From an uncultured delta proteobacterium (GTDB taxonomy: Bacteria > Desulfobacterota > Syntrophia > Syntrophales > Smithellaceae), in contig CAIVQG010000001.1 in the NCBI GenBank assembly GCA_903907985.1, positions 1 to 36,729 on the forward strand: a stretch of 36,729 nucleotides of DNA, written 5' to 3'. Shown in pieces: positions 8,296 to 26,145 of the stretch. The position numbers were made by a program, and so were the translations under genes. The notes beneath the pieces are model-generated. The model searched no databases. It was given only the letters and a program-made list of their open reading frames with translations, and was not told the DNA's origin. Positions within the stretch are counted from its first letter, which is position 1. Every line of letters starts with the position of its first letter.

Positions 8296-9442
8296 TGATC
8301 AAAACATTACGGTTCTGCCGGCGCCCCTCCGGTGTGTCATTGTCAGCTGCCGGATTGAGTGAACCTGCTCCCCGCACATTCAGGCGTTGCGAATCAATGC
8401 CCAATTTTTCCACGAGATAATTACACACGCTTTGAGCACGCCGCTGAGACAAAGCCAAATTGTATTCTTCAGCTCCGACATTATCAGTATGCCCCACAAT
8501 GTTCAGCTTTGCTGTGCCATATTTCACCAGGTAATCAGCGGCTGTCTGCATTTCGTCGCGATAATCATCTTCAATCCTTGATGAATCCGTGTCGAATTCA
8601 ATAATGGTGCTGAAGCAAGTCGGCAGTGCGAGTATTTTCCCCGGCCGTTTTTTAGCAATTGCCGCCGGTTTAACCGCCGATATTATGGCAACCTTTTTAG
8701 GAGACGCTTCCTTGCCGGATTCAGCCAGGGCAATATCGGAAGGTTCATTGCTGAAATATATATCGCCGATCATGCTTTCGGCCGCACTTTTTGTATGTTG
8801 AGAATTAATGTAAATTTGTAATCCGGTTGTACCCTTTGGTTCGCCACCATCAATATCAGTAAAAAGCTTTTTATAATCCTGATACACATTACGTCTTTCC
8901 GTGTACCACTGACCAACATTATCTGCTTTACTTCTTAAAACGATATATCTTAATTTGTCGCCGCCGGTCTGCGAGCTCCTGCCGCTCCAGCCCCTGGGGG
9001 CCTCATTATCCCAGATATAACCGATTACGGGAGTATTCATTCCCATAAAACCAGACTCTTTAAAGGCGACATAAACTTGCAGGGCCTGGTCATCGGTAGA
9101 AGTTTTACGGACATCTCCCCCTTTGGGCAATTTGGTGACCCTCCACCGCCAGCACAGTATGGGATATTTTTTTACATCAACTCTGGCTTCTTTACGCACA
9201 CCGAAAGAAGAATCCCCCCCTGATATTAAATGCAGGTAAAAACTATCTCCGTCTTTTTCCATATTCATCAGGGGACGTCCGGTTTTTTTTTCCAATTTCC
9301 AGCCATCCGGAACTCCATCGGGCATTGCCGGCGTGGTAAATTTCATCACCGGAATAATTCCGGGATTGGCAATGCAATCGCCGGCCCCAGAGATAGACAA
9401 GGCTATAACGAACAAAAAAAGAACAGCCGCACTTCTTCTCAT
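8279..9442 (-). CDS. DUF3047 domain fused to OmpA-like peptidoglycan-binding domain
   Basis: A signal peptide covers residues 1-25. Residues about 33-232 match the DUF3047 pattern (CWRWRV, DDQALQVYVAF, IGYIWDN, YIVLRS, ERRNVYQDY, GLQIYINSQHT). A basic, alanine- and proline-rich linker follows, and 275-385 is an OmpA C-terminal domain: FDTDSSRI, NIVGHTDNVG (317-323, with D320 contacting diaminopimelate in characterised homologues) and LSQRRAQSV. The protein should sit in the periplasm, held to peptidoglycan, presenting the beta-rich DUF3047 domain. The start codon overlaps the pyrE stop by 4 nt (ATGA), which indicates translational coupling. DUF3047 proteins normally stand alone, so the fusion may be informative about where that domain works. 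Confidence 0.85.
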   Translation of the reverse strand: MRRSAAVLFLFVIALSISGAGDCIANPGIIPVMKFTTPAMPDGVPDGWKLEKKTGRPLMNMEKDGDSFYLHLISGGDSSFGVRKEARVDVKKYPILCWRWRVTKLPKGGDVRKTSTDDQALQVYVAFKESGFMGMNTPVIGYIWDNEAPRGWSGRSSQTGGDKLRYIVLRSKADNVGQWYTERRNVYQDYKKLFTDIDGGEPKGTTGLQIYINSQHTKSAAESMIGDIYFSNEPSDIALAESGKEASPKKVAIISAVKPAAIAKKRPGKILALPTCFSTIIEFDTDSSRIEDDYRDEMQTAADYLVKYGTAKLNIVGHTDNVGAEEYNLALSQRRAQSVCNYLVEKLGIDSQRLNVRGAGSLNPAADNDTPEGRRQNRNVLISDCLE

Positions 9443-22102: not shown

Positions 22103-22609
22103 TTAGTAGCAGATTCCCGGCCCGCCTGCGCCATGCCCTCTCATACCCCCGCGGGGACCAAAGCCCATGCCCCTGCCCCAGCCGGAGTTAGCCAGTTTTT
22201 CCTGCTGCTCGGGTGTAAGCAATTTACGAATTTCTAATTTTTGCGCGGTTGCCTTATCTTCCAATTGATCACGCAGTGCCCTTACTTCCTTTTGCAAGGC
22301 AAGAATCTTATCCTTATCAGGATTTACTTGCAACCACATCCTGCGCAGCTCTACAGATTTATCGAACATCTTTTCTCTGACCGGTCTTATTTCTTTCTGG
22401 TGGTCAAGCTGCAGAGCTTCAATTTTTGTTTTCTGTTCAGCCGAAAGATTTAACTTTGCCCATGCTGCATCACGATGATAACCGGGACCATTGCCCGGCC
22501 CCATACCTTCGCCAGGTCCTCTGCCGGAACCGGGGCCAAAAGCGAATACCGGTACGCTCAAAATCATGCCAATCGCAACCGTAATCAATGTCAATGTTAA
22601 CTTTTTCAT
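22103..22609 (-). CDS. Spy/CpxP/ZraP-like periplasmic chaperone
   Basis: The 168-residue product has a signal peptide ending at VFAFG (about 23). A Gly/Pro-rich stretch follows, then a helical core with LNLSAEQKTKIEALQ and LLTPEQQEKL, the two L-T/S-x-x-Q motifs of the Spy/CpxP/ZraP family. The tail is rich in Gly, Met, Arg and His and ends GICY. Homologues are periplasmic, assemble as helical cradles or rings, bind unfolded proteins and, in ZraP, zinc. Neighbours make the case for ZraP: a sensor kinase and a sigma-54 activator are divergent from it, and a sigma-54 promoter lies upstream. AAAGGAGATTAAT before the ATG is nearly identical to the site of the preceding small ORF and of leuA. Confidence 0.88.
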   Translation of the reverse strand: MKKLTLTLITVAIGMILSVPVFAFGPGSGRGPGEGMGPGNGPGYHRDAAWAKLNLSAEQKTKIEALQLDHQKEIRPVREKMFDKSVELRRMWLQVNPDKDKILALQKEVRALRDQLEDKATAQKLEIRKLLTPEQQEKLANSGWGRGMGFGPRGGMRGHGAGGPGICY

Positions 22610-22621
22610 AATTAATCTCCT

Positions 22622-22807
22622 TTAAATCAAATTTTCTTGCGTGTAAATTACATCAGCAGTATTTTTGTTTATTAATTTGCCTAATCTGGAAGCCAGACAT
22701 GCAACCGTGATATATTCCAATATCAATTTCTTAGAAATATACGGATAGTATCTAACCAATAGCAGGCTAAACACGATGCTCATCAATGTCACGGTTAAAT
22801 TTTTCAT
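22622..22807 (-). CDS. Small membrane or exported ORF, possible relic of a Spy paralogue
   Basis: This 61-residue ORF has a strong ribosome site (AAAGGAGATTAATA) and a hydrophobic N-terminus (MKNLTVTLMSIVFSLLL). Its first about 15 codons and ribosome site closely copy those of the downstream spy-like gene (MKKLTLTLITVAIGMIL), yet after residue 17 the two share nothing recognisable and no LTxxQ motif is present. I infer a duplicated 5' end followed by decay or replacement. Its stop codon TAA merges into the ribosome site of the spy-like gene, so translation of the two could be coupled. It is the first ORF behind the sigma-54 promoter. No function can be given; it may act mainly as a leader. 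Confidence 0.5.
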   Translation of the reverse strand: MKNLTVTLMSIVFSLLLVRYYPYISKKLILEYITVACLASRLGKLINKNTADVIYTQENLI

Positions 22808-22857
22808 TATTAATCTCCTTTCGGGCGTTCCATATAACGTAAGTTGCTTTGATATAG

Positions 22858-22873
22858 AGCAAAGGCTATGCCA
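22858..22873 (-). promoter_or_regulatory. Sigma-54 (RpoN) -24/-12 promoter
   Basis: The minus strand reads TGGCATAGCCTTTGCT, which fits TGGCAY-N5-TTGCW at every conserved position, including the GG and GC pairs in correct phase. Start of transcription is expected near 22847, about 40 nt before the small ORF's ATG at 22807. The divergent regulator encoded at 24781 has the GAFTGA loop needed to activate such promoters. Confidence 0.85.
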
Positions 22874-22959
22874 TTTACAAAAAAGTCAATTAACATATAG
22901 ATAATATTAGAGATATCTTTCATATACCAAATTATCATTTGTATTTTTTCCAGATAAGC

Positions 22960-23007
22960 GGATAATATGTATCCACACGAAGGTATCCAGATGGATAAAT
23001 AGTATCC
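22960..23007. promoter_or_regulatory. Candidate enhancer sites (UAS) for the sigma-54 activator
   Basis: Two dyads of the same form, GGATA-N5-TATCC, occur at 22960-22974 and 22993-23007, exactly 33 bp apart (about three helical turns). An extra TATCC at 22984-22988 makes a further palindrome, TATCCAGATGGATA (22984-22997). Their centres lie about 120 and 153 bp upstream of the predicted sigma-54 start, the usual distance for enhancer-binding proteins. They also lie about 50-90 bp before the kinase ATG, so could autoregulate the divergent operon. Confidence 0.7.
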
Positions 23008-23056
23008 AGAAACGGCTCAGCAAATTTTTTATCATGCAGCAACCGGAGAATCAGTT

Positions 23057-24775
23057 ATGCAGGCAAAAGCCAAAAAAAAGTTCCGCTTTGATATTTCAAT
23101 TTGGGTAGCAATAAGCGCTATTGCCGTATTAGCCATGATTTCTGCCGTGATGACCTTAACTCACTTCCAGCGGCAAAAGGAACAGGCAGTCGAGTTGCTG
23201 ACAGAAAAAGGAGCCACACTGATCAGATCATTTGAGGCAGGTTTACGCAGTCAAGCCGTAAAAGGCGCGGATATCTTTAAGGTACAAAAACTGCTGATGG
23301 AAACAGCGCAGCAGCCCGATATTGACTACATTGTTATTACCGACAACAAGGGCAAAATAATCGCTGACAGTGATCCTTCCATGGCCAGTCAGCAATACGG
23401 CCTTGATTTGGATACCGGGAAAATTGCCTTAAGCAAAGACACAAAATGGCGACAGGCGACAAACCCCGAAGGCGCCGGCACCTTTGAAGTTTATCGCGGC
23501 TTCTTCCCGCAGGAAAGAAATAACGAAAGACAAATTGCACCATCAAATCCAAAAAGCAACAATATGATTATTTACGTCGGCTTTAACATGGCTATGATTG
23601 AAAAGGCCGGCAAGGAAGATACTCGAAACACCATCATCATTGCTCTGATCCTTTTATTAATCGGCTCCTCGGCCATTGTTTCACTATTTCTCGCGCAGGC
23701 CTACAGGACAGCGCGCACTTCGCTTTCCCGCATTACTGCTTTTTCCGAAGCACTGGTTAAAAATATGCCCATCGGTCTTATAGCGCTCGATGAGAGTGGC
23801 AATATTGCCACTTGTAATGAAAAGGCCGATGCCATCTTGAATATATCCTGCAGCAATGCCGAAGGCAAACAAATGGATTCAATAATGCCTGCGCCTCTGC
23901 AAAGAATATTTACTGAACTTTCCGCACGGGACGGCCTGGTAGAAGAAGATTTGCAAATTATTTCCGGGCAGAAGGAAAGCAAAACACTGGAAATTGTCGC
24001 GGCAGGACTTACCGACAATGGAATTTCCACTGGAAAAATAATGCTGCTGCGTGATGTCACAGCGCTGCGGCAATTGGAGAGCGAAGTGGCGAAGAGCCGT
24101 CATTTAACTTCCATCGCTAGCTTGGCGGCTGGCGTTGCCCATGAGATTCGCAATCCGCTAAGCTCCATCAAAGGCTTTGCCGTGTATTTTAGGGAACGCT
24201 TTTCCGGGAATATTGAAGACCAGCAAACGGCAGACACCATGATCGCCGAAGTAGAACGCCTCAATCGTGTAATCAGCCAGTTGATTGAGTTCGCGCGGCC
24301 ATTGGAGTTGAAGCCGGAAAAAACATATTTCCCCGATTTAATCCAACACACACTAAGCTTGATTGCGGCCGAAGCAAAAAAGAATCATGTCACTATTACT
24401 ACAGATACTGCATTTGATTTGCCGCTAACCGAAGTTGATCCCGACAAAGTCAAACAGGTGCTGCTAAATATTTTTCTCAACTCGCTTACGGCAATGAAAA
24501 ATGGCGGTAATCTGGCAATCAAGCTTGTGACCCAAAAAGATAAGCTGGTCACCATTATTTCCGATACCGGCACAGGAATCGAGAAAATGGATTTGCCGCG
24601 CATCTACGATCCCTATTTTACTTCGAAGCCCGCAGGAACAGGCCTGGGGCTGGCAGTCGTTCAGAAGATAATGGAAGCGCACGGCGGAACGATTAATATG
24701 GAAAGTGATCTCAGCCAGGGGACTACGGTATCACTGCAATTCCCGCTTACACCTGCTGACAAAAAGGATATATAA
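23057..24775 (+). CDS. Membrane sensor histidine kinase, ZraS-like
   Basis: This 572-residue kinase has two membrane helices (about 13-35 and 191-213) enclosing a periplasmic sensor domain of about 155 residues. A linker and PAS domain (about 228-340) follow. The HisKA helix has H362 in VAHEIRNPLSSIKGF, and the HATPase domain has N475 in NIFLNSL, DTGTGI at 503-508, and GTGLGLAVV. The layout and the neighbouring sigma-54 regulator and Spy-like gene match ZraS, which responds to zinc and envelope stress in enterobacteria; the ligand here is not established. CCGGAG precedes the ATG. Five nucleotides separate it from the regulator gene, so both are one transcript. Confidence 0.92.
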   Translation: MQAKAKKKFRFDISIWVAISAIAVLAMISAVMTLTHFQRQKEQAVELLTEKGATLIRSFEAGLRSQAVKGADIFKVQKLLMETAQQPDIDYIVITDNKGKIIADSDPSMASQQYGLDLDTGKIALSKDTKWRQATNPEGAGTFEVYRGFFPQERNNERQIAPSNPKSNNMIIYVGFNMAMIEKAGKEDTRNTIIIALILLLIGSSAIVSLFLAQAYRTARTSLSRITAFSEALVKNMPIGLIALDESGNIATCNEKADAILNISCSNAEGKQMDSIMPAPLQRIFTELSARDGLVEEDLQIISGQKESKTLEIVAAGLTDNGISTGKIMLLRDVTALRQLESEVAKSRHLTSIASLAAGVAHEIRNPLSSIKGFAVYFRERFSGNIEDQQTADTMIAEVERLNRVISQLIEFARPLELKPEKTYFPDLIQHTLSLIAAEAKKNHVTITTDTAFDLPLTEVDPDKVKQVLLNIFLNSLTAMKNGGNLAIKLVTQKDKLVTIISDTGTGIEKMDLPRIYDPYFTSKPAGTGLGLAVVQKIMEAHGGTINMESDLSQGTTVSLQFPLTPADKKDI

Positions 24776-24780
24776 ATGAA

Positions 24781-26145
24781 ATGAAATCAAATCAATCCAT
24801 TCTGGTCGTTGATGATGACGTGGCACATCGGATCATGCTCAAAAAGCTGATCGGCAGCTGGGGCTATGATATTTCCGAGGCTGAGGATGGGTCAATTGCT
24901 ATTTCCGAAGTCCGGGCACGGGCATTTGACCTCATTTTAATGGATATTCGTATGCTCAATGTTTCCGGTATTGAAGCACTCGAACAAATTAAGATTATTA
25001 ACCCGGCAATCCCGGTGATCATTATGACAGCCTATGCCTCTGTGGAGACGGCAGTTCACGCCTTGAAAAAAGGCGCTTACGATTATCTCACCAAACCACT
25101 GGATTTTGACGAATTAAAAATCGCCATCGCCCGCGCTACTGAGCATACCAGACTCAAAAGAGAAAATGAGTATTTGAAGGAAAGATTGGGCGAGAGGTTT
25201 GACCGGCAAAGCATTATAGGTCAGAGTAAGGCAATGGTTAAACTTCTGGATAACGTTTCTCAGGTAGCGTCTACAGAAGCAACTGTCCTGATCACCGGTG
25301 ATTCGGGAACAGGCAAAGAAATGATTGCCAATGCCCTCCATTATAACAGTCAACGCTCAGAAGCACCTTTTATAAAAATTAATTGCGCGGCGCTCTCCGA
25401 AACGCTTTTGGAATCAGAATTATTCGGCCATGAAAAAGGAGCCTTCACCGGTGCTGACCGCAAGCGGGAAGGAAAGTTCCGGCAAGCCGACGGCGGCAGT
25501 ATTTTTTTAGATGAAATCAGCGAAATGTCACCAGCCATGCAGGTTAAGCTTTTGCGTGTTTTGCAGGAAAGAGAAATTACCCGTGTCGGCGGGTCGGAAG
25601 TCATTAAAATTAATGTCCGTGTGATTGCCGCTTCCAATAAGGATTTGAAAAAGGAAATAGCCAAGGGACGTTTCCGTGAAGATTTGTTTTATCGCCTGAA
25701 TGTTGTGGCTTTGCACGCGCCGCCGCTCAGGGAAAGAAAAGAAGATATCCCCATACTGGCGCAGCATTTCTTAAATCTCTTTGCCGACAGGAATTCTAAA
25801 AGCATCAAAGGCTTTACGCCACAGGCAATGGAAAAGCTAATAAAGTATCCCTGGCCGGGTAACGTCCGGGAGTTGATGAATGCCGTGGAAAGAGCGGTTG
25901 TCCTTTCCCGCACGGAATATCTGGATGTCGATGAACTGGCGTTACTGATGGCAGATAATGCTTCAGCTGAAAAATATGATCAAAACGGTTTGACGGAAAA
26001 CGTTCCGCTCACGGAAATGGAAAAGAGGACCATTCTGGAAACTCTGAATGCCGCGGGTGGCAATAAGAGCGAAGCTGCGCGGCGTCTGGGTATCACCCGC
26101 AAAACGCTCCGCGCCAAACTGGAGAAGTATGAAGGTGCGAGCTGA
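24781..26145 (+). CDS. Sigma-54-dependent response regulator, NtrC/ZraR-like
   Basis: The 454 residues comprise a receiver (acidic pocket D11/D12, phospho-acceptor D55 in LMDIRM, K105), an AAA+ domain and a Fis-type helix-turn-helix. The AAA+ part shows Walker A GDSGTGKE (173-180), ESELFGHEKGAFTGA with the sigma-54-contacting GAFTGA at 220-225, Walker B IFLDE (241-245) and an R-finger region around FREDLFYRLNV. The C-terminal 40 residues (ILETLNAAGGNKSEAARRLGI) are the DNA-binding domain. It should bind the GGATA-N5-TATCC dyads upstream and activate the divergent RpoN promoter; that target pairing is inference from position. A nearer ATG at 24776 is out of frame. Confidence 0.94.
   Translation: MKSNQSILVVDDDVAHRIMLKKLIGSWGYDISEAEDGSIAISEVRARAFDLILMDIRMLNVSGIEALEQIKIINPAIPVIIMTAYASVETAVHALKKGAYDYLTKPLDFDELKIAIARATEHTRLKRENEYLKERLGERFDRQSIIGQSKAMVKLLDNVSQVASTEATVLITGDSGTGKEMIANALHYNSQRSEAPFIKINCAALSETLLESELFGHEKGAFTGADRKREGKFRQADGGSIFLDEISEMSPAMQVKLLRVLQEREITRVGGSEVIKINVRVIAASNKDLKKEIAKGRFREDLFYRLNVVALHAPPLRERKEDIPILAQHFLNLFADRNSKSIKGFTPQAMEKLIKYPWPGNVRELMNAVERAVVLSRTEYLDVDELALLMADNASAEKYDQNGLTENVPLTEMEKRTILETLNAAGGNKSEAARRLGITRKTLRAKLEKYEGAS

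Follow-up and report, generated by a model that had tools for sequence, protein, structure and literature searches.

A predicted sigma-54-dependent envelope-stress switch resembling ZraPSR, with a dyad - half-site - dyad operator, in a Syntrophales bacterium and its relatives

We report the analysis of a window of 36,729 nucleotides (positions 1 to 36,729 of contig CAIVQG010000001.1, assembly GCA_903907985.1) from an uncultured bacterium of the Smithellaceae (Desulfobacterota; Syntrophia; Syntrophales). In this window a gene for a ZraP/Spy-type periplasmic chaperone is divergent from a pair of genes encoding a membrane sensor histidine kinase and an NtrC-family response regulator, and the DNA between them carries two dyads of the form GGATA-N5-TATCC and a -24/-12 promoter pattern. 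The region 22103-26145 is very probably a self-contained sigma-54-dependent envelope-stress switch that works like the ZraPSR system of Escherichia coli and Salmonella. No described envelope-stress circuit for syntrophic anaerobes of this group was found in the literature searched.

We infer that the kinase (23057-24775) responds to a signal in the periplasm by phosphorylating the regulator (24781-26145), dimers of which would occupy the two 15-base-pair (bp) dyads three helical turns apart, with an extra contact at a half-site between them. The dyad-bound regulator would then form an AAA+ oligomer, which through looping of the DNA would reach the sigma-54 polymerase at 22858-22873, about 100 bp away, and open leftward transcription through a small protein and the chaperone. 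The regulon would further include ZraP paralogues, TolC/MacAB-type exporters and DUF3300 proteins, reached through the same combination of operator and sigma-54 promoter, with more such members being detected in relatives than in the source genome.

The control region

Read from left to right, the control region comprises a predicted sigma-54 (-24/-12) promoter TGGCATAGCCTTTGCT on the minus strand (22858-22873), a promoter-proximal dyad GGATAATATGTATCC (22960-22974), a central half-site TATCC on the plus strand (22984-22988, within GTATCC at 22983-22988) and a promoter-distal dyad GGATAAATAGTATCC (22993-23007). Direct reading of the sequence confirmed these elements, all of which had been named in a preliminary description of the locus, along with the 33-bp spacing of the dyads. 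Both dyads are of the form GGATA-N5-TATCC, and their starts are separated by 33 bp or about three helical turns. The transcript of the chaperone operon is predicted to start near 22847, from which point the centres of the two dyads would be about 120 and 153 bp away on the upstream side. NtrC-type enhancer units are laid out in this way, their paired operators lying some 100-150 bp upstream of a GG-N10-GC promoter.

Taken alone, the window is weak evidence, and it is the conservation in relatives that is decisive. The strict -24/-12 pattern has a mean of 1.01 occurrences in shuffled windows and appears at least once in 66 of 100 shuffles; the promoter pattern by itself is at chance level in the window, whereas the arrangement is not. 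The TGGCATAGCCTTTGCT site is the only one of the 284 GG-N10-GC sites of the window with a consensus score of at least 10 out of 12, and 13 sites on the two strands of its 36.7 kb have a score of at least 9. Dyads with at most one mismatch number three as against 1.11 expected, a count reached in 8 of 100 shuffles. A search of the complete 3.4 Mb genome gave 14 exact dyads versus one match to the reversed control, and a single exact pair of dyads 30-50 bp apart, with none for the reversed control.

Conservation in close relatives

A scan of named genomes for the kinase recovered 60 loci, 47 of which were taken further together with the window. The close set consists of 41 entries including the window, with kinases at least 51% identical. 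Set apart from its counts were L058 (48 bp of upstream sequence), L086 and the distant loci L080-L083, L087 and L090, and left unused were L091-L102 (a fragment and weak matches to unrelated kinases) and the genome G071. A dyad with at most one mismatch is found in 39 of the 41 close loci, the remaining two (L088 and L089) having two mismatches. A divergent -24/-12 site with a score of at least 9 and within 500 bp is present in 40 of the 41, mostly 90-106 bp from the dyad, and a ZraP-like gene lies on the minus strand in 39 of the 41. L066 has kept the dyad and is without both the -24/-12 site and the chaperone gene, and the sequence of L046 stops before the chaperone position. The spacing in L056, L059 and L060 is 32 bp, a value of 35 bp arising from a tie with a weak third site.

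A further set comprised 51 genomes of the family, many of them identical to genomes of the named loci, so that the two sets are not independent. The kinase was found in 42 of these, and the strict unit of a dyad and a -24/-12 site at a set distance was found in 35, with 52 matches against one for the reversed control; 28 of the 52 adjoin the kinase, in 27 genomes.

These observations bear on an alternative whereby the dyads mainly autoregulate the kinase-regulator genes via a plus-strand sigma-70 promoter, the -24/-12 match being incidental. The dyads do lie less than 100 bp from the kinase start, and the chance-level frequency of the promoter pattern in the window would agree with such a role. 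However, the divergent -24/-12 site recurs at nearly every close locus, for the most part at a narrow range of distances from the dyad, and at most of the distant loci considered below, and units of dyad and promoter also precede genes with no adjoining kinase. We accordingly regard autoregulation as the main role of the dyads as very unlikely.

Distant relatives and the spacing of the dyads

In a draw of 155 genomes from the class, the kinase or a near relative was detected at E 1e-60 in 117, the genomes from outside the family all belonging to the same order. The 44 best matches outside the family supplied the distant set, for which 40 upstream regions were taken (kinase 43-49% identical); a pair was counted if each dyad had at most two mismatches, with at most three in total, at a spacing of 28-50 bp, and L103, L104 and L119 were left out of the count, as they had been found through the motif itself. 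Such a pair is present in 29 of the 40 loci, two of them at 31 bp and 27 at 32 bp, versus none of 40 for each of seven control palindromes of the same form, while a minus-strand -24/-12 site occurs in 37 of the 40 and a ZraP-like gene in 35. The preliminary description had named as its refuting condition that relatives lack the dyads in front of their orthologous spy-like genes. This was not the outcome: dyads, helical spacing and the -24/-12 site are retained within the family and, with drift, within the order. At a looser threshold a pair at 31-33 bp, in some cases a weak one, was obtained in 82 of 86 upstream regions; the 32-33 bp pairs that this threshold gives for L081-L083 are spurious, the real spacing in these being 40-42 bp. 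Exact pairs, with 30-50 bp allowed, number 26 in 24 of the 155 genomes (reversed control, 2 of 155), and are spaced by 32 bp in 14 cases, 33 bp in 11 and 43 bp in one.

Spacings about one turn longer are seen in several other loci. The dyads are 40-42 bp apart in L080-L083 and L087, whose record titles name Deltaproteobacteria, Desulfobacteraceae or Desulfobacterales, and five exact pairs outside the class have spacings of 33, 33, 42, 43 and 44 bp. The pairs in L149 (44 bp), L151 (42 bp) and L152 (43 bp) adjoin a relative of the window kinase, and in L149 and L151 the opposite flank of the pair holds a ZraP-like gene. Spacing by whole turns, whether three or four, fits binding on a single face of the helix, with the proviso that homologous loci share history and are not independent cases. 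In L081-L083 (Desulfobacteraceae/Desulfobacterales) the best -24/-12 site is on the opposite strand, toward the kinase, and the promoter side appears to have been switched in these loci.

One could argue that the dyads are chance palindromes in AT-rich intergenic DNA, common only through the kinship of the genomes: the count of one-mismatch dyads in the window is matched by some shuffles, as stated above, and many loci come from one family, some being near-duplicates (L054/L057 and L056/L060). This explanation is hardly credible, because the remaining intergenic DNA has diverged, the spacing is confined to 31-33 or 40-44 bp, the control palindromes are absent and the motif recurs before unrelated envelope genes; conservation beyond the family already contradicts it.

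Anatomy of the operator

An alignment of 65 upstream regions with 32-bp spacing (L090 left out) allowed the operator to be delineated more closely. The promoter-proximal dyad, which is kept in relatives, extends to TGGATA-N5-TATCCA; NtrC sites of the type TGCACC-N5-GGTGCA share this 6-5-6 form. In the promoter-distal dyad the right half is kept and the left half drifts. The central half-site is conserved about equally with the dyads, with frequencies over the 65 loci of T 0.98, A 0.97, T 0.94, C 0.80 and C 0.94. Over 64 rows the mean majority fraction amounts to 0.95 in the two halves of the proximal dyad and 0.93 in the central half-site; in the distal dyad it is 0.95 for the right half and 0.66 for the left. 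The corresponding values are 0.44 for the upstream flank (89 columns) and 0.41 for the downstream flank (9 columns). The dyads are the anchors of this alignment and their own figures are raised by that selection, whereas the central half-site was not used for anchoring; a single upstream flank column reaches 0.84, so that the flank is not fully free of constraint. By this alignment the predicted operator is a dyad - half-site - dyad element and not merely a pair.

The regulator as the likely ligand of the dyads

The source genome encodes rpoN, and the sigma-54 activator domain was found in it 22 times, 19 of these being strong matches; the regulator of the window is the only one of the 19 with an exact dyad within 5 kb. 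Because of this, and because the dyads and the kinase-regulator pair are conserved together, we assign the dyads to the regulator encoded at 24781 as its putative binding sites. Among the close loci its helix-turn-helix (HTH) segment GNKSEAARRLGITRKTLR hardly varies, and the equivalent in E. coli ZraR is GNKTEAARQLGITRKTLL.

The abundance of such activators leaves room for a reading in which the control region is a genuine sigma-54 one, its main binder being one or more other NtrC-family activators, and the adjacent regulator having other targets. Fis-type HTH domains are alike, and the recognition helix is largely the same in E. coli ZraR, whose neighbouring operator is a different one; moreover, G060 and G120, both among the 24 genomes with exact pairs, lack a kinase match at E 1e-60. 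Against this, the dyads track the kinase-regulator pair across families, even in L081-L083 with their -24/-12 site on the opposite strand, and no other strong activator match has an exact dyad in its vicinity. A different main binder therefore seems improbable, and control by the adjacent regulator is preferred.

Proteins encoded by the locus

The chaperone gene (22103-22609, minus strand) encodes a protein of 168 residues with a signal-peptide-like start and Pfam matches to Metal_resist and LTXXQ (PF13801, 9e-15; PF07813, 8.3e-9). A profile of 23 chaperones retrieved the ZraP structure PDB 3lay (E 5.5e-4), followed by Spy and a VirG-like protein. The AlphaFold model of the window chaperone has a mean predicted local distance difference test (pLDDT) score of 72.5, with values of 90-97 in the helical hairpin blocks and poor tails. 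In Foldseek searches with this model the first six matches were chains of 3lay (probability 1.00, template modelling score by target 0.79-0.89, E 0.007-0.04), there being no match under E 0.001, and the next structural neighbours were CpxP, the metal sensor CnrX and Spy. The predicted fold of the chaperone is ZraP-like. The 23 aligned chaperones have in common a GFGPRGGMRG tail, and a C-terminal cysteine, Cys167, is nearly invariant among them.

Between the promoter and the chaperone gene lies a 61-residue small membrane-type protein (22622-22807, minus strand), with homologues at the same position in five other loci (L045, L047, L049, L050 and L085). Its profile matches 9 of the 155 genomes, all within the family of the window. 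Within the genus, G004 gave no match, G005 retains the first 18 residues only and G006 has a copy with two stops. The ratio of nonsynonymous to synonymous substitution (dN/dS) is 0.09-0.43 over 15 pairs, measured on the first 41 codons, a short stretch on which dS is often saturated. The small open reading frame (ORF) shares a signal-like start with the chaperone, as seen in profile matches 18 residues long, and the idea that it is a decayed chaperone copy was considered and rejected. It was treated as a gene because the remainder is conserved in six loci with dN/dS below 1, and it looks to be a real, patchily kept small membrane-type protein which, from its position, is probably on the chaperone transcript.

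The kinase gene (23057-24775, plus strand) has Pfam HisKA and HATPase domains, with weak Cache and PAS matches below the cut-off. Its best NCBIfam model is ZraS, with 387.3 bits versus a cut-off of 479, and the best stretch covers kinase residues 335-569 only, the sensor part lying outside it. The regulator (24781-26145, plus strand) combines a receiver, a sigma-54 AAA+ domain containing a GAFTGA motif and a Fis-type HTH, which is the domain architecture of an NtrC-type activator; its best NCBIfam model is ZraR (581.5 bits versus a cut-off of 760). For the chaperone, ZraP scored 19.7 bits against a cut-off of 200, and a CpxP-family model was slightly higher, at 21.4 against 148. Elsewhere in the window, at 382-1905 on the plus strand, we noted a gene for a 507-residue protein that combines a caspase-type (Peptidase_C14) domain with an Lcl C-terminal domain.

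Other genes behind the same operator

The preliminary description had offered GGATA-N5-TATCC as a search pattern for a regulon, and in relatives it does recover other envelope genes. The strict unit has 24 matches in the family away from the kinase, and among the 18 examined, 14 precede a gene whose product has a secreted or envelope look, as judged by eye from the N-terminus. These 14 comprise four ZraP-like genes; two TolC-type OEP genes with HlyD behind, one of them with an ATP-binding cassette (ABC) ATPase after it; three DUF3300 genes (L135:2181-3575, 464 residues; L137:2308-3642, 444 residues; L138:1947-3404, 485 residues); two genes whose products match a glycine zipper at a score under the Pfam cut-off; and three genes for a secreted-looking protein of 190-194 residues with no Pfam family (L136:1944-2528, L140:3256-3828 and L141:1736-2320, from G025, G030 and G023 respectively). 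A dyad and a -24/-12 site stand before each of the three DUF3300 genes, which connects this uncharacterised family with the operator. The other four matches are one in G015:C158 before a 62-residue ORF, followed by an OmpH/Skp-like ORF whose first 50 residues are identical to those of a protein matching OmpH, one at a contig end (G006:C24) and two, in G013:C10 and G000:C9, that look incidental. Of the 26 exact pairs of the class draw, 11 are at kinase loci, six before an OEP gene and five before a ZraP-like gene (one of these being a weak match, E 6.5e-4), leaving four unassigned.

A second locus was recovered in the source genome on contig C32, where dyads at 9324-9371 are followed by a 104-residue ORF, a ZraP-like gene, an ABC ATPase and a permease-like ORF. 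It was hit by two independent searches, one for the dyad pair (three mismatches; reversed control 0) and the other for the Metal_resist family, and neither search established further targets in this genome beyond C32. Single exact dyads were rejected as a list of the regulon in the source genome, as 10 of the 12 outside the region are within ORFs of at least 80 residues.

An exact intergenic dyad of the source genome, at G000:C6:39276 (L001, 2577-2591), adjoins a ferritin-like ORF. It is followed at 328 bp by the strong -24/-12 site TGGCACAAGCCTTGCT and by an HlyD-type gene with an RND-like ORF behind. The relative G005 likewise has a comparable ferritin-like ORF next to a dyad pair, there upstream of an OEP-HlyD operon (L128), and on this ground G000:C6:39276 may be a rearranged member of the regulon.

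Evaluation and implications

Several observations weigh against the proposed switch and regulon. The close loci are related, with a few near-duplicates, so that their counts are not independent. The dyad pair is below threshold in 11 of the 40 distant loci; L171 among these ends early, and L174 and L192 are without chaperone and -24/-12 site, but the other eight do have both, which implies that the operator has drifted or differs there. In a draw from the phylum, exact pairs were found in 5 of 395 genomes, that of the window included, versus 2 for the reversed control, a count that alone says little. The -24/-12 candidate of C32 is weak (score 8 out of 12), and chaperone, kinase and regulator all score below the respective NCBIfam equivalog cut-offs of ZraP, ZraS and ZraR. 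Finally, no -24/-12 site with a score of at least 9 faces the kinase within the window, unlike the situation in E. coli, where -24/-12 sites lie on both strands. For this reason the preliminary description went too far in claiming a complete control circuit: the claim stands for the promoter and dyads on the chaperone side and does not account for control of the kinase-regulator genes.

Putting the lines of evidence together, we are inclined, with moderate confidence, to the broader view that the Syntrophales, along with some further members of the phylum, have a sigma-54 envelope-stress regulon of their own, which would be defined by an enhancer with the structure dyad - half-site - dyad built on TGGATA-N5-TATCCA. 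Its core would be the ZraP-kinase-regulator locus, and lineage-specific additions would be ZraP paralogues, TolC/MacAB-type efflux systems, DUF3300 proteins and the small membrane-type protein, which would perhaps modulate the kinase or the chaperone; between groups the spacing would have jumped by a whole turn, from 31-33 to 40-44 bp or the reverse, with the helix face being kept. If this is true, syntrophic anaerobes of this group gain a readable operator with a fixed geometry, and their envelope-stress response becomes a searchable regulon. It would also tie DUF3300, small secreted-looking proteins and a membrane-type protein of 50-61 residues to envelope stress, and provide a set of natural variants: within one regulator family the 15-bp dyads stay separated by three or four turns, and the letters of the operator and the promoter side vary.

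Comparison with known systems

The window shares with ZraPSR of E. coli and Salmonella a chaperone gene divergent from the kinase-regulator operon, an NtrC-type regulator, two intergenic 15-bp dyads about three turns apart (31 bp in E. coli and 33 bp in the window), a -24/-12 site toward the chaperone and a chaperone with a ZraP-like predicted fold. Binding of zinc by the chaperone, and a chaperone activity that zinc enhances, are further marks of the E. coli type. It differs in the operator itself, which is GGATA-N5-TATCC as opposed to GAGT-N7-ACTC in E. coli, the latter having been read directly from the intergenic region and not being a curated motif. The E. coli zraP-zraS region has GAGTAAAAATGACTC and GAGTCATTTTTACTC, 31 bp apart, and contains no GGATA-N5-TATCC with fewer than two mismatches. 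Further differences are the single, chaperone-side promoter direction, the extra small ORF and central half-site of the window, and the scores of its proteins below the equivalog cut-offs. The term ZraPSR-like, as first applied to this locus, accordingly holds as a statement of resemblance and does not extend to equivalog membership or to the operator of E. coli.

As regards the extent of the regulon, E. coli ZraR is described as a single-target regulator by genomic SELEX (gSELEX) in the text covered of PMC8249747, which also cites 25 further targets, mostly related to envelope stress, from chromatin immunoprecipitation sequencing (ChIP-seq; Rome 2018), and the covered part of PMC7657598 gives zraP, zraSR and mgtA as ChIP-exo targets. 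Because of the 25 further ChIP-seq targets, a broader set of envelope targets would not of itself distinguish the window system from that of E. coli, and it may be common to the two.

The Cpx system resembles the window in having a periplasmic LTXXQ-type chaperone, CpxP and Spy being among the next structural neighbours after ZraP. It differs in its regulator: CpxR belongs to the OmpR family and works with sigma-70, and the window has an NtrC-family sigma-54 activator. In Vibrio cholerae, zraP2-zraS2-zraR2 is likewise a Zra-like chaperone with a two-component set tied to envelope stress; the covered text of PMC10848872 likens it to both Zra and Cpx, gives its kinase as 35% identical to E. coli ZraS and holds no description of its operator. 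In Desulfovibrio vulgaris, many operator motifs of sigma-54 activators have been derived by comparative genomics (PMC4641369, PMC3333781); the main texts of these papers contain neither the strings GGATA or TATCC nor ZraR, the motif logos being in figures, where an overlap with the present operator may exist. More generally, no description of this operator or regulon was found in the literature covered, figures, supplements and RegPrecise lying outside that scope. As far as the sequences go, then, systems of this kind have the geometry in common, and the system of the window is distinguished by its operator letters, by a promoter in one direction only and by the central half-site; it very probably works like ZraPSR yet falls outside E. 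coli-type membership.

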